Origin: Bacillota bacterium
GTDB taxonomy: Bacteria; Bacillota; UBA4882; UBA10575
Assembly: GCA_012735195.1 (NCBI GenBank)
Contig: JAAYIC010000076.1
Span: 1 to 43,944, forward strand
Direction of reading: 5' to 3'
Length of the DNA stretch: 43,944 bases
Positions within the stretch are counted from its first letter, which is position 1; every line of letters starts with the position of its first letter. A program made the translations under genes and the position numbers. The notes under the pieces are model-generated. The model was not told where the DNA came from. It ran no database searches and saw nothing but the letters and a program-made list of their open reading frames with translations. Positions 9,326-32,523 of the stretch are shown here, one piece after another.

Positions 9326-11605
9326 TCAGCCGCTTTCCTCCCGGCCGGGCGCGACTAATCGTTGCACCTCTGCGGCGATTGCCTGGAAATCCCCGGCCTC
9401 CCGGCAAAACCCCATTTTTTCTGCCAGTTCCAAAAGGATTTGCCAGTTTTCCTTGCCGCCCGGCGGGGTCAGGGCTTGGGCCGTCCACTGGAGGCGCCCT
9501 TCGCTATTGAGATAGCTTCCGCGGGTTTCCGGGTAGGCCGTTCCCGGCAGGAGGAGCCCGGCGGCGGCCAGTTCTTCCCGGTAAAACGGGGTGACAACGA
9601 CGGTGAAGAGCCCGGGGCGGCAGAAGGAGGCGGGGAGTTTCTCCTCGTCCGCTACTGCCAGCAGGCCTTTACATTTTTCTTGCCCCGCGACCGCCAGGAT
9701 CTCTGTGAAGGCGGCCTGCGGGTGGAAGGGGGCGGCGCCGGGGTGGAGTTCCCCGGACCGGCCGGGACCGTGCCCAATACCCATCTTCTGCAGGCCGTAG
9801 ATATTACCCCAGGGGACCAGGGGCAGCAGGGTGGCTCTCTCATGGGCGGAGAGAAGCTCTTGCAGCCGCCGGAGTTCCTGCCAACTCAAGTCCCGGGTGT
9901 CGCAGACAACAGCCGGGTTTTTTGCCCGGCGGAAGGCCGCGGCAAAGGCGGCAAATTTCTTGCGGAAACAGCCTTCCACCTCCGGGAGTGCCGTTTCCGG
10001 GGCGGCGGACCCGGCCCGGGCGAGGGCTGTCAGCAACTGCAGGCAGTCCTCCCGGCCCGCCCGCAGCACGGCCCGGGCTGCCGGGTCGAGGGCGGTGGTC
10101 CGGTGGTGCATGATTCCCAACCAGGAACCATTTTCAGCCGCTTTCTTGATTTGCCGGGCCAGGACGGGGTAATCCGCGCCCGGTGTTACCCGGTACAAGA
10201 GGATAAAGTCGCTCTCCGCCAGGGTGGCAAAGTCGCCCTTCCGGCTCTCCAGAAAGCGCTGCCAGCCTGCGCCCGGGGTGGTAAAGAGGTTGTCTGTCCC
10301 AAGGTCGCGGGCAAGGGCGGCGGTAAGGAGGGCCGCTTCATTGGTTACATTGGGGGCTACAAAAAAGGCGATGCTTTCCGGCCCGTAATTCTTCGCCAAT
10401 TCCGTGAAGGTCCGGGCAGCGGTGGCGATAGCCTCTTCCCAGGTTGTCTCCTGCAGGGTACCGTCCACCCGGAGCAGGGGCGCTGTAAGGCGTCTTTCCT
10501 TATGGGCGGCACTGAAATGATAGGCGCCCTTCACGCAAAGCAGGCCGTGGTTAACGCCGCTGGTGGCCGGAACGGATGTTTCCATTACCCTTCCGTCGCT
10601 GCTGTGCAGGGTTAAAGAACACCCGACCCCGCAGTGGGGACAGATAACCGGGGTTTTCCGGGTCTCCCACGGGCCCGGCTTGGCAAAAGCCGGGGCGGTT
10701 TTGTTGCTGAGGGCGCCGGTTGGGCAGACCACCACACACAGACCGCAGCTTTCACAGGCGGCTGCCGCCGGAAAGCGGCCGGGAGCAAGGATCGTGGTTT
10801 CAAGGCCCCGGTGGAGGAAGTTCAAGGCGTTGCTTCCCTGGGCCTCCCGGCAGGCGCGGACACAAAGGCCGCAAAGGATACATTTATTCGGGTCATAGGC
10901 AATATACGGGTGGGAGAGGTCTAGGACAGGGGACGGTTCCCTGTCTTGCCGTAGGACAGGGAACCGTCCCCTGTCTTGCTCGTCAATCCCGTACGCGGTG
11001 GCCAGTTCCCGCAGGCGGCAAGCAAAGACGTCGCTGCAACCGCAAGAAAGGCAGCGCTCTGCTTCGTACCGCGCCTGTTCGGGTGTGAGCCCCGCCTGGT
11101 AGGGGGCAAAGCCTTTTTTCCGCTCGGTCACGGAAAGGATCTGCGCCGGTATTACCCGTTCTTTCTTTTCGAACTCTTGAAATTCTGCCGGGTCCAGCTC
11201 TTCCAGGTTTCCTTTCCGGCAGTTGTAACAGGCGGCCTCGCCGGTTACCGGTTCACCCCGGAGGTACTGGCCGATGGCAAGGGCGGCGATCCTGCCCGCG
11301 GCCACCGCTTCCACGACCGTTGCCGGGCCGCTGACACAGTCGCCGCCGGCAAAAACCCCCGGGACCGGGGTGGCCATGGTTACAGGGTCGGCCTGGATCC
11401 ACCCGCCGTCCAGCGGGAGAAGGTTTTCCCCGGGTGCGCCCTGCCCATTGCCCGCCTCCCCCTGTAACGAAGTTTCATCAAGTACCTGGCCGATGGCGAG
11501 GATGACGCGGTCGGCGGGAAGGAGAAACTCCGAATTTTCCAGGGGGACCGGGCGCCGGCGGCCGCTGGCATCCGGCTCGCCCAGGGTCATTTTGATTAGT
11601 TCCAA
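9326..11605 (-). CDS. Stn/NfnB-NuoG-like redox fusion, C-terminal part after internal amber
   Basis: Continuation, in the same frame, of the gene starting at 12784. It completes the GltD/NfnB-type FAD-NAD(P) domain (PADRVILAIGQ, GVFAGGDCVSGPATVVEAVAAGR, residues about 30-110 of this part). It then has CxxC/Cys-rich segments (CYNC; CLSCGCSDVFAC), a two-cluster ferredoxin domain (KCILCGLCVRAC near 242; CESCGLCVVVCP near 284) and a molybdopterin-oxidoreductase [4Fe-4S] motif (CPHCGVGC...LLCVKG, 322-359). A shortened molybdopterin fold ends in ETRGSYLNSEGRLQW. The position where formate dehydrogenases carry the catalytic Cys/Sec reads TTPGAGWQRF, and the surrounding insertion is missing, so catalysis at Mo/W is unlikely, as in NuoG. 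A start at ATG11605 has no ribosome site; production needs readthrough or a corrected sequence. Confidence 0.8.
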   Translation of the reverse strand: MELIKMTLGEPDASGRRRPVPLENSEFLLPADRVILAIGQVLDETSLQGEAGNGQGAPGENLLPLDGGWIQADPVTMATPVPGVFAGGDCVSGPATVVEAVAAGRIAALAIGQYLRGEPVTGEAACYNCRKGNLEELDPAEFQEFEKKERVIPAQILSVTERKKGFAPYQAGLTPEQARYEAERCLSCGCSDVFACRLRELATAYGIDEQDRGRFPVLRQDREPSPVLDLSHPYIAYDPNKCILCGLCVRACREAQGSNALNFLHRGLETTILAPGRFPAAAACESCGLCVVVCPTGALSNKTAPAFAKPGPWETRKTPVICPHCGVGCSLTLHSSDGRVMETSVPATSGVNHGLLCVKGAYHFSAAHKERRLTAPLLRVDGTLQETTWEEAIATAARTFTELAKNYGPESIAFFVAPNVTNEAALLTAALARDLGTDNLFTTPGAGWQRFLESRKGDFATLAESDFILLYRVTPGADYPVLARQIKKAAENGSWLGIMHHRTTALDPAARAVLRAGREDCLQLLTALARAGSAAPETALPEVEGCFRKKFAAFAAAFRRAKNPAVVCDTRDLSWQELRRLQELLSAHERATLLPLVPWGNIYGLQKMGIGHGPGRSGELHPGAAPFHPQAAFTEILAVAGQEKCKGLLAVADEEKLPASFCRPGLFTVVVTPFYREELAAAGLLLPGTAYPETRGSYLNSEGRLQWTAQALTPPGGKENWQILLELAEKMGFCREAGDFQAIAAEVQRLVAPGREESG
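10922..10981. repeat. Two-copy 30-bp palindromic repeat inside coding sequence
   Basis: Two adjacent 30-bp units each begin TAGGACAGGG and end CCCTGTCTTGC. The 21-nt cores at 10925-10945 and 10955-10975 are exact reverse complements of each other, and each is itself nearly palindromic (GACAGGG...CCCTGTC). The 60 bp add 20 codons in frame to the linker before the ferredoxin domain, encoding Arg/Asp/Pro-rich residues. It resembles the short palindromic REP-type elements scattered in many genomes. Confidence 0.85.
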
Positions 11606-11641
11606 CTGCTTTTCGGCGTCACGGTACCGCGTGGGGTTGGC

Positions 11642-12784
11642 CTAAAACTGAAAGGCTACGCCTTCTTCCTTGGCTTCGGCAATTTCCTCGACGGCGGCGG
11701 GCATTTCCTTCTCCGTCCGCCGGTAGACGATGGTGACGCTCTCCGCTCCCAGGCGGACGGCGGTCCTGGCCGCGTCAATCGCGGTGTTCCCGCCGCCGAC
11801 CACCACCACCCGGTGGCCGGCTTTGACTAAACCGGCCTGCGGATCCCTCAAAAATTCCAGGGCGGAGCAGACCGCAGGGGGCTCCCCGCCTTCCAGCCGT
11901 ATATCGCGGCCCAGTTGGGCGCCGATCCCGACAAAGATGGCATCGTAGCCTTCCCGGCGGAGGGTTTCGATGGTAAAATCCTTGCCCATCGCCGTTTGGA
12001 GGCGAAGGTCAATCCCCACGCTCAGGATCTCTTCGATCTCCCGGTTTAAGACCTCTTTCGGGAGGCGGTATTCGGGGATCCCGTAGCGGAGCATGCCGCC
12101 GGCTTCCTTTTCCGCTTCAAAGACGGTGACCCGGTGGCCCATAAGACGCAGGTAGTAAGCGGCGGTCAGGCCGGCGGGGCCCGCGCCGACAACCGCCACC
12201 TGTTTGCCGGTCTCCGGGAGCGGGGTGACAGGGTTGGACTCTCCGGATTCGGCGTCCTCATCACCGGCGTATTGCTTTAAGGCGCAGATCGCCACCGGTT
12301 TATCCACAAGATTGCGCCGGCATTCGGTTTCACAAAAACGGGTACAGACGCGCCCGACCGAAGACGGGACGGGGAGTTTCTCCCGGATTAGCCGGGCGGC
12401 CTCCCCGGGGTTGCCATTGGCGAGATGGGCGATGAAACCCTGGATATCAATCCCGGCCGGGCAGGCCAGTTGGCACGGGGCGACACAGTCACCATAATGG
12501 TAGGCGAGGAGCAGTTCCAGGGCAAGGCGGCGCAGCCGGGTTATGGTTGCACTGTCGGTCCGGACCACCATCCCGTCGGTTGCCTGTGTGGTGCAGGCGG
12601 TAACGGGTTTGGGCGCCCCGTTAATCTCCACAAAGCAGAGGCGGCAGGCGCCAAAAGGCTTAACCCGCGGGTCATGGCAGAGGTTGGGGATATCGATCCC
12701 TGCCTCTTGAGCTGCTGCCAGGACGGTGGTTCCCTTCTTAACCGTTACCCTGGTTCCGTCGATTGTCAATGTTACTGTTGCCAT
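11642..12784 (-). CDS. Stn/NfnB-NuoG-like redox fusion, N-terminal part up to internal amber
   Basis: First 380 residues of a 1152-codon fusion. A [2Fe-2S] ferredoxin domain carries C36, C47, C50 and C64. A GltD/NfnB-type N-terminal iron-sulfur domain follows (DCVAPCQLACPAGIDIQGFI, 99-118; VCTRFCETECRRNL, 147-159). The FAD-binding VVGAGPAGLTAAYYLR (198-213) and NADPH-binding VVVGGGNTAIDAAR (327-340) come next. Codon 381 (11644-11642) is TAG where relatives have a hydrophobic residue (FQF-x-ANPTRY, compare FxFLxxP). The frame stays open for 771 further codons. ATG12784 is used because GGGAGAGGGAG lies just upstream. With NuoE- and NuoF-like partners, the set resembles StnABC, the electron-bifurcating NADPH:NAD/ferredoxin transhydrogenase of Sporomusa; function is inferred. 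Confidence 0.82.
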   Translation of the reverse strand: MATVTLTIDGTRVTVKKGTTVLAAAQEAGIDIPNLCHDPRVKPFGACRLCFVEINGAPKPVTACTTQATDGMVVRTDSATITRLRRLALELLLAYHYGDCVAPCQLACPAGIDIQGFIAHLANGNPGEAARLIREKLPVPSSVGRVCTRFCETECRRNLVDKPVAICALKQYAGDEDAESGESNPVTPLPETGKQVAVVGAGPAGLTAAYYLRLMGHRVTVFEAEKEAGGMLRYGIPEYRLPKEVLNREIEEILSVGIDLRLQTAMGKDFTIETLRREGYDAIFVGIGAQLGRDIRLEGGEPPAVCSALEFLRDPQAGLVKAGHRVVVVGGGNTAIDAARTAVRLGAESVTIVYRRTEKEMPAAVEEIAEAKEEGVAFQF

Positions 12785-12785
12785 C

Positions 12786-14648
12786 TTACTCCCTCTCCCC
12801 GGAAGCTGTGGTCGTATTGGCATTGGTGTCTGCGGTGTGCGTGTCCTGCCCTTCGGAAATGGTGATTATCGCATCAAAATGGCAGGTACTGAGGCACAAG
12901 CCGCAACGGATACAGACCGTTTCATCCAGGTGGTAAGGCCGGCGCCTCTCACCGGAAATGGCCTGCACCGGACAGATTCTGGTACAGAGACCACAGCCTG
13001 TGCATGTTTCCGTTTCAATTCTGTAGACAATTAAATCTTTGCAGATCCGGGCCGGACAGCGTTTCTCGTTAATATGGGCGTCGTATTCATCCCGGAAATA
13101 ACGGATCGTTGTAAGAACGGGGTTGGGCGCGGTTTGCCCCAGGCCGCAGAGGGAACCGTCTTTAATTGCCTCTCCCAGTTCTTCCAGGCGCTTAAGATCA
13201 CCGGGGCGGCCCTTCCCCCGGCAGATCCGGTCCAAGGTCGCCAGCATCAGCGGGGTGCCGTTGCGGCAAAAAGTACATTTGCCACAGGATTCTTCAGTGG
13301 TGAAATTTAAAAAGAAACGCGCCACATCAACCATGCAGGTCTCATCATCCATGACCAACAGGCCCCCGGAACCCATAATCGCGCCGATTTCTGCCAGCGA
13401 CTCGTAATCTACGGGTGTTTCCGCCAGGCTGGCCGGGATGCAACCGCCGGAAGGACCGCCGGTCTGGACGGCCTTGAAAGGCTTGTCGCCGGCGATCCCC
13501 CCGCCGATGGCAAAGACGATCTCCCGGATGGAGATGCCCATCGGCACTTCAATCAAGCCGCTGCGCCGGACCTTGCCGGCGAGGGCGAAGACTTTCGTTC
13601 CCTTACTTTTTTCCGTACCGCAGTTTTTATATACCTCCGGCCCCAATTCGAAGATGCGGGCCACATTGGCCAAGGTCTCGACATTATTGATGCCCGTGGG
13701 TTTTCCCCAGCGCCCTTCCTGCGCCGGGTAGGGAGGGCGCGGCCGCGGCATCCCCCGTTTCCCCTCGATACTGGCGAGGAGGGCGGTCTCTTCCCCGCAG
13801 ACAAAGGCCCCTGCGCCTTCCCGGATATGGATGTGAAAGGAAAAGCCGGAGCCGAGGATATTCTCACCCAGGTAGTTTCGTTCCTCCATCTGGGCGATGG
13901 CCAGGCGCAGGCGTTGCACGGCCAGGGGATATTCGGCCCGGATATAGATATACCCTTCATTGCTGCCGATCGCATAGCCGGCGATGATCATCCCCTCCAA
14001 CACGCTGTGGGGGTCGCTCTCCAGGATACTGCGGTCCATAAACGCCCCGGGATCGCCCTCGTCGGCATTGCAAACCACATATTTGGGAGCGCCCGGCGAC
14101 TGGCGGGTAAAACGCCATTTCAAAAAGGTCGGGAAGCCGGCGCCGCCCCGCCCGCGCAGGCCGGACTCTTCAAGCGTGGCGATGACCTCTTCCGGAGTCA
14201 GCGATGCCAGTACTTTTTGTAGCCCCCGGTACCCGCCGGCCTTCACGTAGCTGCCGATATCCTCCGGATCGATTTTTCCGCTGTTTTTCAGGAGGATCCG
14301 GTGCTGGCGGGTGAGGTAATCCTGTTCCCGCCCGGTAATGACATCCGAATAAACAACCCAGTCGTTACAAGGCCGGCCGGCTCCCAGGTGTTCCTCGAGG
14401 ATACGGCGGGCTTTTTCCAGGTCGACTTCACCATATAAATAGACCCCTTCCTCATCTTCCACCTCGACGAGGGGTTCACAAAAACACATGCCGATACAAC
14501 CTGTCCGGATCAGAGTGAAACTCTTCTCCGGCATCTTTGCCAGTTCCGAACAGAAAAAATTATAAACCGGACGGGCGCCGGCGGCAATACCGCAACTGGC
14601 CAGCCCGACACGGACAATTCTCTTTTTTGCTGTTGCGACACGTTTCAT
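12786..14648 (-). CDS. NuoF/HydB/StnB-like NADH-binding flavoprotein subunit
   Basis: 620-residue diaphorase subunit of a soluble NADH-linked redox complex. An N-terminal thioredoxin-like [2Fe-2S] domain has Cys at about 19, 51 and 55. The FMN site is GLRGRGGAGFPTFLKW (163-178), the NADH site is YVVCNADEGDPGAF (190-203), and the N3-type cluster is ESCGKCTFCRNGT (453-465) plus C501. Two [4Fe-4S] ferredoxin motifs (CTGCGLCTRICP, 549-560; CIRCGLCLSTC, 579-589) end the domain order. This full layout is that of electron-bifurcating HydB/StnB-type proteins rather than complex I NuoF. A Thr/Asn-rich tail (TADTNANTTTASG) follows. The gene shares one base with the stop of the NuoE-like gene, and the fusion starts 1 nt after its own stop, so the operon is tightly coupled. 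Confidence 0.93.
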   Translation of the reverse strand: MKRVATAKKRIVRVGLASCGIAAGARPVYNFFCSELAKMPEKSFTLIRTGCIGMCFCEPLVEVEDEEGVYLYGEVDLEKARRILEEHLGAGRPCNDWVVYSDVITGREQDYLTRQHRILLKNSGKIDPEDIGSYVKAGGYRGLQKVLASLTPEEVIATLEESGLRGRGGAGFPTFLKWRFTRQSPGAPKYVVCNADEGDPGAFMDRSILESDPHSVLEGMIIAGYAIGSNEGYIYIRAEYPLAVQRLRLAIAQMEERNYLGENILGSGFSFHIHIREGAGAFVCGEETALLASIEGKRGMPRPRPPYPAQEGRWGKPTGINNVETLANVARIFELGPEVYKNCGTEKSKGTKVFALAGKVRRSGLIEVPMGISIREIVFAIGGGIAGDKPFKAVQTGGPSGGCIPASLAETPVDYESLAEIGAIMGSGGLLVMDDETCMVDVARFFLNFTTEESCGKCTFCRNGTPLMLATLDRICRGKGRPGDLKRLEELGEAIKDGSLCGLGQTAPNPVLTTIRYFRDEYDAHINEKRCPARICKDLIVYRIETETCTGCGLCTRICPVQAISGERRRPYHLDETVCIRCGLCLSTCHFDAIITISEGQDTHTADTNANTTTASGERE

Positions 14649-15244
14649 CAGGACAACCGCCCCTCTTTATTTTGCGGACTCACATTATTCTGCGGACCTG
14701 CTTTGTCTTCCACACCTTTTTTATTCTGCGTCTCTTTTTTCTTTTGCCCGGCCCCGCCCCGCACCAGCCGGACGGCCTTCTCCGGGGTCAAACGGCCGAA
14801 GGTCTCGCCGTTGATTGTTATCACCGGAGCCAGGCTGCAACAGCCCAGGCAGGCCACTTTTTCAATGGTATATTTCTGATCCGGGCTGGTATCGCCCTCT
14901 TCAATCCCAAGCTCCCGGCGGAGCGCCGCGGTGATCTCTTCCGCTCCCGCCAGGTGGCAGGCGGTGCCGTGGCAGACCTGGATCAGGTTTTCGCCGATGG
15001 GGTGGAGACGAAATTGTGAGTAAAAAGTAGCGATACTATAGAGTTCACTCCCGCATAATCCGGTCAAGGCAGCGACCCGCGGTAAGAGCTCGGGGGGGAT
15101 ATACCCGAATTCTTTCTGGATTTCCTGGAGGACCGGTATTGCCGTCTCCTGCCCACGGCCCAGGCGGCGGATGAGTTGGTCAATCCTCTCGCGGAGCGGA
15201 CCGCCGGGTTGCAAATAGGCTACCTTCTCGGCTGTACCGGCCAT
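14648..15244 (-). CDS. NuoE/HydC/StnC-like [2Fe-2S] subunit
   Basis: Thioredoxin-fold subunit carrying one [2Fe-2S] cluster that passes electrons to or from the flavoprotein. Ligands are visible in CHGTACHLAG and in CLGCCSLAPVITINGE. The N-terminal helical region (REIQKEFGYIPPELLPRVA, read as QEIQKEFGYIP) is typical of NuoE. The core ends near residue 163 (VRLVRGGAG). The last ~35 residues (QKKKETQNKKG..., PQNNVSPQNKEG) are low-complexity and come from a DNA stretch of degenerate repeats, so the tail is probably a recent addition. It is the second gene of the minus-strand operon, 2 nt after the Lrp-like gene. Confidence 0.93.
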   Translation of the reverse strand: MAGTAEKVAYLQPGGPLRERIDQLIRRLGRGQETAIPVLQEIQKEFGYIPPELLPRVAALTGLCGSELYSIATFYSQFRLHPIGENLIQVCHGTACHLAGAEEITAALRRELGIEEGDTSPDQKYTIEKVACLGCCSLAPVITINGETFGRLTPEKAVRLVRGGAGQKKKETQNKKGVEDKAGPQNNVSPQNKEGRLS

Positions 15245-26007: not shown

Positions 26008-26132
26008 GGCCGGACAATGCATACCATAAAACCGCCACTCGCCGCCCGCGCCAAGGCAGGACAGATGGCCGCGTACATACGTAAGAAGGAGGCAAAAGCC
26101 GGATATAATTTACTATTGAGGTGTGGATCTTC

Positions 26133-26831
26133 GTGAACCTTCTCTTTCTGCTCTTTCTTTTCGGCGCCCTGGTCCTGCCCGTCCGTTTTCACCTGCACCT
26201 GCACGGCAGGGGGAACGTCTTTTTCTTCTTTATCGAGATGGGCCTCCCTCCTTTGCGCTTTCTCAACCATACCTTTTTATTTACCCTGGAATCGCCGGAA
26301 AAACCCGGAACGCCATCCCGGGAGGGAGCACGCGTACACACGCCGGAAGTCGGCAAGAAAGGGGAGTTGCCGGCGGTCCCCGGGCTGGTCCCCGGGCTGA
26401 TTCCCGCCGGTTTAAACCAGGTCAATAAGTTGCTAAGCAAGTACGGGGTTGGGGGGACCTTTCTTTATCTGCTTTTGCCTTCCGGATACCGGCGGTGGTT
26501 ATCGGTAACACAGGATCTGGAAAAGCGGGGGAGGTTTTCCCGCTTTAACTGGGGAACGGTAGTTGGGTGCAATGACGCGGCCCTGACGGGGATCGCCACC
26601 GGTCTCCTCTGGGGGGTAAAAGAATCGCTCCTCCAGTTTTTTTTGGGCGGTTACCGGTTTGGCCCGGAAAGCCCGCGCATCGTCATCCTGCCCCGGTTTA
26701 AAACACCGGGTTGGGAGACCATGCTGGACTGTATATTTGCCGTTCAGGTGGGACATATTATCCTTGCCGGCGTGAAAGGTTTTATTTACAGCATGATAGG
26801 GGGCGAAAAACATGGCGGACCACCCGATTGA
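26133..26831 (+). CDS. DUF2953 protein (YtfI-like)
   Basis: Membrane-anchored protein of 232 aa, partner of GerW in many spore formers. An N-terminal hydrophobic segment (NLLFLLFLFGALVLPV) is followed by a beta-rich part (RFHLHLHGRGNVFFFFIEM). The conserved DUF2953 C-terminal half reads NWGTVVGCNDAALTGIATGLLWGVKESLL, and VILPRF lies near the end. It overlaps gerW by 20 nt. GTG26133 is used as start (GAGG at 26118-26121); GTG26121 would put the start on the ribosome site. A TATAAT at 26103-26108 lacks a good -35, and a sporulation sigma factor is possible. Confidence 0.85.
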   Translation: MNLLFLLFLFGALVLPVRFHLHLHGRGNVFFFFIEMGLPPLRFLNHTFLFTLESPEKPGTPSREGARVHTPEVGKKGELPAVPGLVPGLIPAGLNQVNKLLSKYGVGGTFLYLLLPSGYRRWLSVTQDLEKRGRFSRFNWGTVVGCNDAALTGIATGLLWGVKESLLQFFLGGYRFGPESPRIVILPRFKTPGWETMLDCIFAVQVGHIILAGVKGFIYSMIGGEKHGGPPD

Positions 26832-27264
26832 AGGGTTGATGAAAACGGCCATGGAAAGCATAAAAGATATGGTTGATGTCAATACCATCCTTGGCGACCC
26901 GGTGGAGACCCCGAACGGCGATGTCATAATCCCTGTTTCCCGTGTTTCCTTCGGTTTTGCCGCCGGCGGCAGTGAATTTGAGAGTATGCGCCGGACCGGA
27001 GAGAGAAGAGGCGGGGACAGTGAAGGGGAAAAGATGCCCTTTGGCGGTGGCAGCGGCGCCGGGATTACCCTAAGCCCCGTGGCTTTTCTGGTGGTTGGTA
27101 GGGAACAGCCCCGCCTGCTGCCGGTGGACGGCAATGTCCTGGCCGACCGGATTATTGATCTGGCTCCGCAGCTTCTGGGGAAAGTGCAGAACCTTCTTGG
27201 CCGGAACAACAGGAACAAGGAAGAAATGCTCACACCTGCTGTTTCCCAGCCTTCACCTTCATAG
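26812..27264 (+). CDS. gerW: Spore germination protein GerW (YtfJ family)
   Basis: 150 aa, family YtfJ/GerW, a spore core protein needed for normal germination in Bacillus. The pattern IEGLMKTAMESIKDMVDVNTILGDPVETPNGDVIIPVSRVSFGFAAGG is diagnostic, followed by a Gly-rich loop (PFGGGSGAGITLSPVAFLVV). Its presence beside the DUF2953 gene reproduces the ytfI-ytfJ pair and supports an endospore former. Confidence 0.95.
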   Translation: MADHPIEGLMKTAMESIKDMVDVNTILGDPVETPNGDVIIPVSRVSFGFAAGGSEFESMRRTGERRGGDSEGEKMPFGGGSGAGITLSPVAFLVVGREQPRLLPVDGNVLADRIIDLAPQLLGKVQNLLGRNNRNKEEMLTPAVSQPSPS

Positions 27265-27282: not shown

Positions 27283-27477
27283 TTGCCATTGCGGGCGGAA
27301 GTCATCCCTGACCTGTGTATCGCTTGCGGACTGTGTATAGATATCTGTCCGGAGATTTTCTCCTGGAGCCATGAGGAGAAGGCAGAGGCCAAAGCCGGGG
27401 AGGTCCCTGCCAAACTGGAGGAAAAAGTGGAGGAAGCAGCGGAAAACTGCCCTACGGATGCCATAAAGACCGGTTGA
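27283..27477 (+). CDS. Small [4Fe-4S] ferredoxin
   Basis: 64-residue single-cluster ferredoxin: CIACGLCIDICPEIF near the N-terminus and ENCPTDAIKTG at the end provide the CxxCxxC...CP ligands, with the extra Cys (CP after DI) typical of Thermotoga-type ferredoxins. A Lys/Glu/Ala-rich middle joins them. TTG27283 is the apparent start; the preceding GGCGG is a weak ribosome site. It is a possible electron partner of the NADH/NADPH redox operon, which is inference only. Confidence 0.88.
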   Translation: MPLRAEVIPDLCIACGLCIDICPEIFSWSHEEKAEAKAGEVPAKLEEKVEEAAENCPTDAIKTG

Positions 27478-27488
27478 AGACCGGTCTT
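27466..27488. terminator. Hairpin terminator between ferredoxin and minus-strand gene
   Basis: AAGACCGGT (27466-27474), loop TGAAG, ACCGGTCTT (27480-27488), then ATTCAATTTTT. It overlaps the stop codons of both convergent genes. Confidence 0.65.
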
Positions 27489-30400
27489 ATTCAATTTTTA
27501 CCATGTAGAAGGGGAGGGAACGCAGGGGGTCGGGGAGAATAAAGCCGTCCCCGCCGGCGGTGATCACCTGGAAGTAATAGAACAGCCGTTGCCCGCTGCG
27601 GAAATAAGAACCGGGAATTGCCGCCGTAAAGTTTTCTCCGTCGAAGGCCATGGGCAGGACGGCGGTTTTTTCCTCCCGGGACAACCGGTAACAAAGGGAG
27701 ATTTTTTTGATTTCTCCGGGGTCCCGGGGCGTGACGGTTATGGGCAGTGGTGCGTACGCCGGCCCGGGCTCGGGAGAGATCTTCTCCGGCGGGTGGTGAA
27801 GAAGGTAGGGGATATCCCGGCGGGTTCTTTTCCACCGGGGGATCAACGGAGCCACCGGGCTGCCGTACACGGCCTTGCCGCCTTCACTGTCAAAGGCGCT
27901 GATGTAATAGCCGGTGATTTTTTCGGCGGCGGTCGCGGGCGGCGGCAACTCACACCGGAAAAGGCCGTTGCCCGCAGGGCGCATCTGCGCCTGCCGGTAG
28001 CCTCCGACAGTTGCGGTTTGGTAGTGAAGGGTTACGCCGGTTACCGGTTTAACCCCGGTGACCGTGGCCTGAAAAACCTGGGGAGAACCGGGCCTTAGCA
28101 CGGCGGGGCTGTGGGCGATCAGAGGAACGGTGGGCCTGACGGTCAATGCGGAGATAAACCAGTCGGCCCCCTGTCGGCTGGAGAATTCCACCGCCAGATG
28201 TTCCCCTTCCTTGATGGTGATTGTTCTTACCAGATCAACCCTTTTCCCGGCGGGAACCACCAGGTTTTCTGTGATCACCCTCCCATTCAGCCTTATGCTC
28301 AAGGGACCGCGGGTCAGGGGGCGGGAGGTTTGGTCGCACAAGCTTAAACGGACTTGATAAGACCCGGGGAGAAGGTCAACCCGGAAGACGGCCGGCTTTC
28401 GCGCCCAGACCAGGTCGTTAAATAGTTGCAGCCCGTAGCTGCAGGTGGCGCTCCCGGTGATCAACTCCTTTACACTCAACCGGGCGGGGGCTGGGGGGAC
28501 CCCTTGTAAATCCGTGGCGTCCAACCAACCGAACCCCTTTTCTATACTGTATCCGGTCTTCGGTCCAACAAAGAGAAATCTTTTTTCAACACCGTTATCT
28601 CCGGTTCCCTGGGCGGCCGACGACGGGAAGGAACCAAAATCAAAGCCCAGCAGGAAGAGGCCCTGCCGCTGGTGTTCGCGGATTAAGGCATCGATCCTTC
28701 TCTCCTCTTCCAGCAGGAAGAGGAGTTTGTCCCGCCAGTGGCCGGCTTCGCCCGGGCCGGTGACCATCCGGTGGAAATAAAGGTTGCTGGTGATGCGGAT
28801 TATTTCCCCCCAGAACCTTCCGGACTCCCGCAGAAGGTCACGGGCAAGGAAGAGTTGGGTCCGGTCTCCGGTTTCGTAAAAAAGGGCCAGGGCCAACGCA
28901 GACCGGATTTTTACCGCGTGGTACCGGGCAAAGTTGGCCAGAACCGTAAAGTCCCGCAGGGTGCTGTCGTCTTCTTTGATCTCTCCTTGCACCGCCTCCC
29001 GGCTTGTAAGATACCGCGGCAAGGGGTTGTTCCCCCGGCAGAGGGTGATTTTTTCCAGGAGATTGCTACCCAGCTCCTCCAGGTGTTCTGACACATCTTC
29101 CGGGTTTACCCGGCAGCTGGGTTTTCCGGCCAGAAAATCCCGGACGTACTGGCTGATGCTGCTGAAAAATTCCGGTACTCCCGGCGGGGTCCGGAGATAG
29201 TGATCCAATAAGCCACCGGTGTCGATCTCCGGCCACAGCAGGTCTTGATCCGCACCTGCGCGGGCGGTAACGTAAAGGGTGATAATTTTCCCGGCCATAC
29301 TGTAAAGCTCCGCCAGTTCCGCCCCGGCCGCGCCGAACCGCCGGAGGAATTCCCGGAGCCATATTTTGCCGGAAGTATACGGGTTGTAACTCAGGCGGCC
29401 GAAGAGCAGGTAGAAATACCAATACCGCTCAAATTCCCAAGTATAATAGGTCTGGCCATACCTGAGGAGCGGCCAGTCCCTCCGGTCATAGCCCGCGTCC
29501 TTCCAGGCCAGGGGAGGAGCAACAGCACAGCCACAGGGACCCGCAGAAGTAAAATTGAGGATAAACCGGCGGGCCAGTTCCGGGTCTCCCCACGGCAGCA
29601 CCCGGTGGGAGGCGGTCCTTAATTCATGGATCAGGGGGAGGGAGGCGTCTTCGGGCTCGGAACCGCCATATCCTGCTTCAGCCGGCGTTTTCACTGGGTA
29701 GCAGGGGAGGGTAAAAAACATCCCTTGATATTTTGTGGAGAGCGCAAGGGGAACCCCCTCCCGGCGGAGCGCGGCAACAGCCTCCGGGGCAAATCCTTCC
29801 GTATCAAGGATTAACCCTGCTTTTCGCGGGTTTTCCTTGAATACGCGTATGTAGGTTTTAAGCAGAAAATCGATCTGCCGCTCTACGGGGATCATGGGCG
29901 CGTCTTTCCAGCGGAGGAAGAACCCGTCAATCCCCGGGCAGAGGGTAAGGAGTTTTTTAAGGATGGTATAGGTATAGGAGATAATCTTTTCCTGGCTCAG
30001 GCCGGTAACAGGAAAGGGCGGGAAGAGAAGGCCTTCCGCGGGCAGGGTCTGTTCCAGGCCGAGGATGAAGTCGATACCGTGGCGGCGGGCTGCCGTGGAA
30101 ATATTCTGCAGCAGGGAGATGTTTTTTTCTTTCACCGCCGGCGGGACATCAACCGCCCGGATCTCCGGGAATTCCGGGGCATCCAAGAAGTAAGGAAGGG
30201 CCAGTCCGGGGGATTTTTCCGGAGTGGTGAGGAGGAAACGGAAACGGTTAAACCTCGTCCTTACCAGCAATGAAAAATATTGCTCCCAGTAAGCCGGGAG
30301 GAAATAGGTTTGTTGTGGACGCCGGAAATTATGGAAGATGAAGACCTCCCGGATGGGGAGGAACGGTTTTTCCGTCACCGGTGTTACCAACTCGTTCAGC

Positions 30401-30750
30401 GGTTGGGAGTCGATCCGCTCCGCCAGTTCATAGAGGGCATAATTCAACCCTCTGGTATCGGTGGCGCAGACAATCACCGCCGGCGGCCCGCTGTCGTTTA
30501 TAGCCACTTCCTGAATGGTCAAGCTTTCGGCGCCGGGCAAAAGATCGATTCTTTTTTGGGCGGCGAGTTTTTGGAGGAGAGGACTTTCTCTCAGAGTGCC
30601 GATAAAAAAGTCGGCGGGCGCTTCCTGCGGGGAGAAGATCATCTCCACGCTCACACCCTGCCTTATGAGACTTTCTTTAACTTGTTGAAGGGCGATACTG
30701 GTGCTCTCTTCCGGTTGCTCCCGGTTGACAAAACGCATAATTACTGCCAT
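27487..30750 (-). CDS. Large glycoside-hydrolase-like multidomain protein, specificity unknown
   Basis: 1087 aa with no signal peptide (MAVIMRFVNREQPEES), so apparently cytoplasmic. Residues ~1-125 look like the alpha/beta domain preceding GH67/GH20 barrels (VIVCATDTRGLNYALYELAE, 92-111). Residues ~130-450 look like a TIM-barrel (REVFIFHNFRRP, 134-145; GFFLRWKDAP, 276-285; LILDTEGF, 313-320). A helical region, ~450-700, is followed by a malectin/CBM-like beta domain opening with FDFGSFP and GYSIEKGFGWLDA (703-745), as in rhamnogalacturonan-active enzymes, and two Ig-like beta domains (~880-1085). I cannot place the catalytic residues. ATG30750 has AGAGGGG 7 nt upstream. It is a lone gene between sporulation and housekeeping loci. 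Likely an intracellular uronic-acid or oligosaccharide hydrolase, low certainty. Confidence 0.7.
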   Translation of the reverse strand: MAVIMRFVNREQPEESTSIALQQVKESLIRQGVSVEMIFSPQEAPADFFIGTLRESPLLQKLAAQKRIDLLPGAESLTIQEVAINDSGPPAVIVCATDTRGLNYALYELAERIDSQPLNELVTPVTEKPFLPIREVFIFHNFRRPQQTYFLPAYWEQYFSLLVRTRFNRFRFLLTTPEKSPGLALPYFLDAPEFPEIRAVDVPPAVKEKNISLLQNISTAARRHGIDFILGLEQTLPAEGLLFPPFPVTGLSQEKIISYTYTILKKLLTLCPGIDGFFLRWKDAPMIPVERQIDFLLKTYIRVFKENPRKAGLILDTEGFAPEAVAALRREGVPLALSTKYQGMFFTLPCYPVKTPAEAGYGGSEPEDASLPLIHELRTASHRVLPWGDPELARRFILNFTSAGPCGCAVAPPLAWKDAGYDRRDWPLLRYGQTYYTWEFERYWYFYLLFGRLSYNPYTSGKIWLREFLRRFGAAGAELAELYSMAGKIITLYVTARAGADQDLLWPEIDTGGLLDHYLRTPPGVPEFFSSISQYVRDFLAGKPSCRVNPEDVSEHLEELGSNLLEKITLCRGNNPLPRYLTSREAVQGEIKEDDSTLRDFTVLANFARYHAVKIRSALALALFYETGDRTQLFLARDLLRESGRFWGEIIRITSNLYFHRMVTGPGEAGHWRDKLLFLLEEERRIDALIREHQRQGLFLLGFDFGSFPSSAAQGTGDNGVEKRFLFVGPKTGYSIEKGFGWLDATDLQGVPPAPARLSVKELITGSATCSYGLQLFNDLVWARKPAVFRVDLLPGSYQVRLSLCDQTSRPLTRGPLSIRLNGRVITENLVVPAGKRVDLVRTITIKEGEHLAVEFSSRQGADWFISALTVRPTVPLIAHSPAVLRPGSPQVFQATVTGVKPVTGVTLHYQTATVGGYRQAQMRPAGNGLFRCELPPPATAAEKITGYYISAFDSEGGKAVYGSPVAPLIPRWKRTRRDIPYLLHHPPEKISPEPGPAYAPLPITVTPRDPGEIKKISLCYRLSREEKTAVLPMAFDGENFTAAIPGSYFRSGQRLFYYFQVITAGGDGFILPDPLRSLPFYMVKIE

Positions 30751-30884
30751 GATCTAACCCCTCTTTTGCTGCGGAGTCCATAAGTTTGTCCTAAGGAAAA
30801 AACCGGACTGGTTGTTATCTTCGCTTAAAATGGAGTTTTTCCTCTTTCTTGCGGGGAATAGGCGCCCGGCCGGCCCACTGCTTG

Positions 30885-30913
30885 TTCTATTTCTCCTGTT
30901 TATTCCATATATT
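30885..30913 (+). promoter_or_regulatory. Possible sigma-E promoter of spoIVFA
   Basis: TTCTATT (30885-30891), 14 nt, then CATATATT (30906-30913), close to the mother-cell sigma-E pattern (-35 ATATT-like, -10 CATA...T). spoIVFAB is a sigma-E operon in Bacillus. GGAAGGAAG ribosome site follows before ATG30931. Confidence 0.4.
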
Positions 30914-30930: not shown

Positions 30931-31620
30931 ATGGGGGAGCAAAAGAAAAGGAGGGCGGCGTCCTTGTCAAGGCCGGTTTATTCGTACCTATACCGCTTGT
31001 TCTTCCTCCTTCTGCTGGCGGCGGTTTTTTTCGCCGGGATGCTGGCCGGAGCCGGAAACGGCCGCAGGCTGACAGGGAAGCTACAGGAGGCCTTTCCCGG
31101 CTGGCAGGAGAGATGGGCGGCCTCCCGGGAGTGGATCGTTGGCGCCGGGAAGAAGGTTACCGGGTTTACCGGCGAGGTTAGAGAGGTGTTCGCGCGGCGG
31201 GCGCGCCCGTCTGCGCGGTTGCGTACTGCACAGTCACACCCGCCGGAGAAAAGAAGGGTTTTTTTTCCGGTTTTGTCCTGGGAAAAACAGGAGCTCTTCC
31301 CGGACCGGATTGGTTTTACCCTGCCGGAGAAGGCATCGGTCTATGCGGCGGCCGCCGGTTTTGTTGCGGAGTTGCTTCCGGTTAAGGGAGGATGGCGGGT
31401 ACGGTTAGATCACGACGGGGAATGGAGCTCTTTCTATTATCCCCTGGCCGGGCTGGCCGTCGCCCGCGGCGAGCAGGTACAGCCCGGAGAAAAACTGGGC
31501 CATTGCGCGGCGGTGAAAGACGGGGAAACAAAACTGTTCTGGGAGGTCTGGCGCGGGGGAGAGGCGGTTCCTCCCCGGAATTTGCTAACGCGCAGGCCGG
31601 TGCAGGAAACGGGGAAATAA
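30931..31620 (+). CDS. spoIVFA: SpoIVFA-like stage IV sporulation protein, degenerate M23 domain
   Basis: 229 aa; one transmembrane helix (about residues 22-42) after a basic N-terminus, a linker, then an M23/LytM-like domain (FTLPEKASVYAAAAGFVAEL, WRVRLDHDGEWSSFYYPLAGLAVARGEQVQPGEKLGH). The HxxxD and HxH zinc ligands of active M23 peptidases are not present, as expected for SpoIVFA, which tethers and inhibits the protease SpoIVFB in the mother-cell membrane. It is followed 3 nt later by spoIVFB, which fixes the identity. Confidence 0.87.
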   Translation: MGEQKKRRAASLSRPVYSYLYRLFFLLLLAAVFFAGMLAGAGNGRRLTGKLQEAFPGWQERWAASREWIVGAGKKVTGFTGEVREVFARRARPSARLRTAQSHPPEKRRVFFPVLSWEKQELFPDRIGFTLPEKASVYAAAAGFVAELLPVKGGWRVRLDHDGEWSSFYYPLAGLAVARGEQVQPGEKLGHCAAVKDGETKLFWEVWRGGEAVPPRNLLTRRPVQETGK

Positions 31621-31623
31621 CCG

Positions 31624-32523
31624 GTGATCCGGATCCGAATTCACCCTCTTTTCCTCTTGACCCTCTTTATCTCCGGGGTCACCGGCCGGTACCTCAGTAT
31701 GATCCTGGTTTTTTTATCCGTCCTCCTCCATGAACTGGCGCATATCCTGACCGCCTTTGGTTTCGGGTACCGGGCGACCGCTGTGGAACTCTTTCCCTTT
31801 GGCGGCGTGGCCAGGATGGATTATTCCCTTTTTAATGACCCCCGGGCGGAAGCGGTCACCGCCCTGGCCGGGCCTGTCCAGAGCGGGGTTCTTGCCTTGC
31901 TGGCCAAAGTAATGGAGGGTTGGTTAGGTCACCCGCCGGTCTTCGGGGAGTTGTTCCGGATCAATCTGGGTTTGGCCTTTTTTAATCTGCTCCCCCTCTT
32001 CCCGTTGGACGGGGGGAGGATTCTCCGGGCGTTTCTGGCGACCGCGCGGGGTTACACCGCAGCCACCCGGCAGGCGGTGAAATTGACCAAGTACACGGCG
32101 GCTGTGGGCATCCCGGTTTCCTTTTTCTTAGTGAGAAGAACACCCGTCCCTTTCTACCTCCCTTTCCTCCTGGTCTTTTTGTATATGGCTGCTGGAAAGG
32201 AGAATTTTTTTTACGCCTATTGGCGGCAGAAGGACCGGAAATTGCAGGTATTGAAGGAGAAGGGCATGCTGCCGGCCAAGGTTTGGCTGATTGACGCCAA
32301 ACGCCGCCCCGGGGAGGTACTCCCGTTTTTGCAGGGTAGAGATTATCACCTTTTTTTACTGCGCGACCGGAGAGGGCGGATCTTTGCCCTGTTCAAAGAG
32401 GAGGAATTGGCTGCGCTTTCCGGGGAGAATTTGTCTCAAAGCTTTTACCGGTTATGGCGGAAGGGAAGAAGTGGAAAAGGAGATCCCTTCTTTCTGTCGA
32501 AAAAAATAGATAACCAAATGTAG
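31624..32523 (+). CDS. spoIVFB: SpoIVFB-like intramembrane metalloprotease (M50)
   Basis: Site-2-protease family enzyme that cleaves pro-sigma-K in the mother cell. HELAH (about residue 37) is the zinc motif, and NLLPLFPLDGGR near residue 120 supplies the third ligand Asp. About six transmembrane helices are followed by a cytoplasmic C-terminal domain (~205-299) comparable with the CBS domain of SpoIVFB. Length is 299 aa. GTG31624 starts 3 nt after the spoIVFA stop, implying coupled translation. Confidence 0.93.
   Translation: MIRIRIHPLFLLTLFISGVTGRYLSMILVFLSVLLHELAHILTAFGFGYRATAVELFPFGGVARMDYSLFNDPRAEAVTALAGPVQSGVLALLAKVMEGWLGHPPVFGELFRINLGLAFFNLLPLFPLDGGRILRAFLATARGYTAATRQAVKLTKYTAAVGIPVSFFLVRRTPVPFYLPFLLVFLYMAAGKENFFYAYWRQKDRKLQVLKEKGMLPAKVWLIDAKRRPGEVLPFLQGRDYHLFLLRDRRGRIFALFKEEELAALSGENLSQSFYRLWRKGRSGKGDPFFLSKKIDNQM

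Follow-up and report, generated by a model that had tools for sequence, protein, structure and literature searches.

The stretch of DNA analyzed here (the window; 43,944 nucleotides, from a member of the Bacillota) carries on its reverse strand a gene for a protein of 1087 residues. The gene and its nearest neighbors are:

26121..26831, forward strand: DUF2953 protein (neighborhood annotation)
26812..27264, forward strand: GerW/YtfJ sporulation protein (TIGR02874)
27283..27477, forward strand: ferredoxin, convergent, ending 10 bp from the 1087-residue gene (neighborhood annotation)
27487..30750, reverse strand: whole gene, 1087 aa, putative GH138-related pseudo-glycosidase (ORF call, family conservation)
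30931..31620, forward strand: M23 (LytM) gene, divergent, occupying the spoIVFA position (neighborhood annotation)
31624..32523, forward strand: M50 protease of SpoIVFB type (neighborhood annotation)

The reading frame begins with an ATG at 30750, preceded by a GAGGGG-type Shine-Dalgarno sequence. One copy is found, in one syntenic place, in all 16 genomes (mostly draft assemblies) from which the window's family is known here, and dN/dS is about 0.22 across the whole gene in three congeners, with each domain below 0.5. This conservation implies that 27487-30750 encodes a maintained protein and is not a chance reading frame, confirming what an initial annotation of the window had assumed. One copy, that of G009 (L013 / L050), has a single in-frame TAA at codon 73 in an otherwise intact frame, which is either a sequencing error or an early pseudogene. 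The same annotation was right to call the product cytoplasmic: we found no signal peptide or transmembrane segment in it (maximum 19-residue hydropathy 1.14) and no N-terminal hydrophobic segment, and the other family members likewise have neither a signal peptide nor a transmembrane segment. Its description as an uncharacterized family holds too for the curated libraries used; the protein matched zero families in Pfam at E values up to 10 and zero in NCBIfam, and single-sequence searches with Pfam, NCBIfam and phmmer returned nothing significant.

Wherever both sides lie on one contig, the series begins with Ca-ATPase, DUF2953, GerW/YtfJ and ferredoxin, and then comes the 1087-residue gene on the opposite strand; beyond it follow the divergent M23 and M50 genes, rSAM, DUF2344, RNase G, three small genes and Obg. 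The three small genes presumably represent the L21/L27 region, given their position in the rplU-ysxB-rpmA-obg order. As the initial annotation had stated, there is no sugar operon among these neighbors, from the Ca-ATPase through Obg. In clostridia, the spoIVFA position is held by non-orthologous LytM proteins (PMC3533761), a pattern that the M23 neighbor fits. Elsewhere in the window, on the reverse strand at 9326-15244, lie NuoE/NuoF/NuoG-like and glutamate-synthase-like oxidoreductase genes, a set that resembles an electron-bifurcating or formate-dehydrogenase-type complex; one of these genes is apparently split or frameshifted (759 + 393 aa).

A sample of 398 Bacillota genomes held no other full-length copy, and in the sampled Bacillota outside the family only the Ig-like C terminus found matches. 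In G016, which belongs to the same order but another family and is the sole order-level outgroup genome sampled, about 85 bp separate the ferredoxin from the spoIVFA-type gene, with no gene in between: an empty site. Synteny within the family, together with this one empty site, shows a single gain between the ferredoxin and spoIVFA.

The protein divides into six domains, all encoded on the reverse strand:

30376..30750, residues 1-125: alpha/beta domain at the N terminus, GH67N/GH20b-like and lacking a signal peptide (profile, model)
29431..30375, residues 126-440: GH138-type (beta/alpha)8 barrel that has lost its active-site residues (profile, model, alignment)
28663..29430, residues 441-696: helical domain (profile, model, structural alignment)
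28123..28662, residues 697-876: AGA-YXIM/malectin-like beta-sandwich (Pfam PF21254 match)
27847..28122, residues 877-968: Ig-like domain 1 (profile, model)
27490..27846, residues 969-1087: Ig-like domain 2 (model)

The AlphaFold model has a pLDDT of 80; residues 697-878, folded as a single domain, reach 51. PF21254 (AGA-YXIM_GBD) matches residues 697-876 in 14 of 14 members (best E 3.4e-6), and this domain is the densest of the protein in residues invariant within the family. Profiles, the PF21254 match and the model thus bear out the N domain, barrel, malectin-like domain and Ig-like repeats that had been read from the sequence.

The nearest characterized relative is BPa0997 of family GH138, found at E 2.5e-14 by hmmsearch with a 16-row family profile, and by the profile only, since the single sequence gives no GH138 match; a single-sequence PDB search reached only E ~0.06, to GH115. 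Structure agrees with the profile. Foldseek with the AlphaFold model placed GH138 first (E 1e-26), and VIA-align gave it a Z of 26.4 over 605 residues at an rmsd of 3.7 A, spanning residues 1-695, with the next families below Z 20. BPa0997/BT0997 is a retaining alpha-galacturonidase of rhamnogalacturonan-II (PDB 6HZE/F/G), the GH138 activity being that of an alpha-1,2-galacturonidase, and its N domain, barrel and helical domain align with ours at 16% identity. Our protein differs in having extra YxiM/malectin-like and Ig domains and no signal peptide, in its sporulation locus and in belonging to the Bacillota. The GH115 and GH67 alpha-glucuronidases share the overall fold order, but their structural scores fall far below those of GH138. 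GH115 membership was rejected because there is no PF15979 or PF17829 match up to E 10, whereas a true GH115 of the same genome scores 1.9e-143 with PF15979; GH67 membership was rejected because there is no full catalytic domain, weak GH67N similarity appearing in 6 of 16 rows (best E 0.043). The earlier description of the front domain as GH67/GH20-type therefore stands as to the uronidase-type fold, but the front part is closest to GH138, and the GH67/GH20 impression can be traced to weak N-domain similarity to GH67/GH115.

That own-genome GH115 (L060:3008-6874, G000:C21) has 1289 residues with GH115_C and CBM96 domains. It shows no obvious signal peptide, and its neighbor is a GH10 xylanase with CBM60. 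The distribution of true GH115 genes is patchy: they occur in four of the 16 family genomes (G000:C21, G001:C141, G002:C45 and G014:C81), as expected of a catabolic enzyme; the 1087-residue gene is universal, which makes a catabolic role unlikely.

We then asked what stands in the catalytic columns of GH138:

29899..29901, reverse strand: codon 284, an Ala following strand beta4, aligned with GH138 Glu294 (acid/base) (alignment)
29719..29721, reverse strand: codon 344, a Met following strand beta6, aligned with GH138 Glu361 (alignment)

The BPa0997 numbering of both glutamates was checked against the alignment. The catalytic role of Glu294 was reportedly established by Labourel et al. in 2019, and the 2019 GH138 paper is said to name Arg332 as the specificity arginine; that Glu361 is catalytic is supported by a solved E361S mutant among the PDB matches. 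The window protein, by contrast, reads WKDAPM at the first column and KYQGMF at the second, and has Glu318 in the column of Arg332. Both glutamates are absent from 14 of the 16 family genomes; the other two, G006 and G007, have Glu in both columns. In a phylogenetic tree the family forms one clade (support 100/99), and G006 and G007 branch early in its large sub-clade, implying that catalysis was probably lost at least twice.

The comparison extends to exported planctomycete proteins. They are 27-29% identical to the window protein over most of its length and have the same order of N domain, barrel and helical domain, several of them with an Ig-like C terminus; most of the complete ones bear signal, lipoprotein or TAT-type leaders. 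Unlike the window protein, they keep the glutamates (RMHGESG and KYWMEQM at the catalytic columns; both in 14 of 15, E361 in 15 of 15), and we found no recognizable equivalent of the AGA-YXIM/malectin-like domain in them. Pocket-side positions that are invariant in planctomycetes are lost or mostly lost in the window's family (window residues 235, 282, 297, 318, 340 and 351), whereas scaffold residues are kept (R134, W155, R166, N168, G225, G250, W387, P390, G451 and R452). Conservation of the barrel is reversed as well. Among planctomycetes it is the best conserved core domain, with a mean pairwise identity of 54% (16.5% invariant) against 39% for the N domain and 48% for the helical domain; in the window's family it ranks last of the three core domains that both groups share, at 37% (8.9% invariant) against 50% and 44%, with the YxiM/malectin-like domain at 49%. 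Such a reversal is expected if catalysis has gone but the scaffold persists. The planctomycete proteins (L083-L092, L098 and other loci) occur as several paralogues per genome, with no Pfam match where tested, and would constitute a candidate new uronidase family that, from its residues, appears active.

As judged from sequence, then, loss of catalysis in the window protein is well supported, and we infer that the protein very probably hydrolyzes no glycosides in its organism. The initial annotation had proposed intracellular uronide breakdown, with a conserved acidic pair to be sought in the barrel; none follows beta4 or beta6, and with Ala284 and Met344 in place of the glutamates and the gene fixed in a sporulation locus, that role is unlikely. 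A version in which relocated catalytic residues cleave imported uronic oligosaccharides draws on the uronidase-clan fold, on an E193 that is invariant in the family and a D389 that is nearly so, and on the two lineages that keep both GH138 glutamates. Nevertheless, both congeners have Gly where the window protein has Asp283, beside Ala284; among the core domains the barrel is conserved least; the gene adjoins neither transporter nor sugar genes; and it occurs universally, unlike GH115. We regard such an active enzyme as distinctly improbable.

What a non-catalytic protein might do is suggested by its place. Only two blocks of the divergent intergenic region align readily:

30817..30845, reverse strand: promoter-like element AGAGGAAAA-N11-nnnGAAnnn, sigma-H-like, -10 off consensus (14/14 upstream regions)
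30880..30912, forward strand: element GCTTGTTCTA-N14-CCATATA, oriented to the divergent spoIVFA-type gene (conserved in the family)

The first, AAAGAGGAAAA-N11-nnnGAA, faces the 1087-residue gene in 14 of 14 cases, and in most genomes it lies 55-95 nt ahead of the start; the second resembles a sigma-E promoter without a clear fit. Because the element pattern was framed post hoc from the sequences of related genomes, we let it carry no weight in our confidence. A scan of the window's own genome with the sigma-H consensus gave 28 sites against 3 in the control, but no recognizable sigma-H genes were among the downstream genes inspected, which leaves the sigma-H reading weak. In most genomes the exact upstream element occurs almost nowhere but at this locus, and hence no regulon can be read from it.

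One reading of this arrangement is a cytoplasmic early-sporulation scaffold or regulator of the SpoIVFA/SpoIVFB checkpoint, its expression driven by the divergent promoter region that it shares with those genes, and not a component of the spore surface. The gene is divergent to spoIVFAB in all genomes with both sides on a contig, the intergenic elements are conserved while their flanks are not, and the upstream element is sigma-H-like. However, the domains are of carbohydrate type, interaction with SpoIVFA/FB is hypothetical and the adjacency may be incidental; we consider this rather unlikely. Incidental adjacency is also the basis of another reading, a housekeeping glycan-binding protein (serving, for example, a storage polymer or a precursor of the cell envelope) whose gene lies beside sporulation genes by chance. 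The Obg and RNase G genes in the neighborhood and the conserved lectin-like domain would suit it, but it leaves the insertion between sporulation genes, and fixation there, unexplained, and the order-level relative that lacks the gene manages without the protein. This too we think improbable.

We instead favor, at roughly even odds, a domesticated pseudo-glycosidase, non-catalytic and probably used in sporulation. The ancestor of the family gained one GH138-related gene between the ferredoxin and spoIVFA. In the family the product has no export signal and includes a YxiM/malectin-like domain absent from the planctomycete relatives; most lineages then lost the two catalytic glutamates along with the majority of pocket residues, the scaffold being kept under purifying selection. 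The protein would probably be delivered by the mother cell onto the spore as it develops, in the manner of coat proteins. There is a precedent in the SleL/YaaH spore-coat proteins of Bacillus, in which a glycosidase-type protein made under sigma-E reaches and encases the forespore (PMC6282716), although SleL belongs to an unrelated family and is likely a peptidoglycan hydrolase with LysM domains. The single origin of the clade (100/99), the adjacent GerW and SpoIVFB-type genes and the presence of SpoIVA in all 16 genomes, which marks an endospore former, support domestication, and a protein without a signal peptide is likewise compatible with a spore coat. Against it count the glutamates of G006 and G007 and a promoter-like element closer to sigma-H than to sigma-E/K, with its -10 off consensus; adjacency to sporulation genes can be incidental, the flanks also holding RNase G and Obg. 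The more specific suggestion of a cytoplasmically made glycan-binding or structural sporulation role, drawn from locus, fixation and lineage, is plausible at somewhat less than even chances. We are similarly tentative about the full history, in which a pectin-type glycosidase, captured once and placed beside the SpoIVFA/SpoIVFB genes, lost catalysis and export, acquired a lectin-like domain and was fixed in the sporulation machinery.

Several implications follow. Automated CAZyme annotation may count such pseudo-glycosidases as carbohydrate catabolism, and the comparison exposes an exported, apparently active GH138-like planctomycete family that is unnamed in the curated libraries tried. Within one bacterial family, the loss of catalysis looks stepwise, the glutamates being kept by two early-branching lineages and lost elsewhere. 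If our reading is true, the fold of a plant-cell-wall-degrading enzyme has been recruited as a non-catalytic developmental protein, and a captured glycosidase fixed in sporulation would represent a new kind of sporulation protein.
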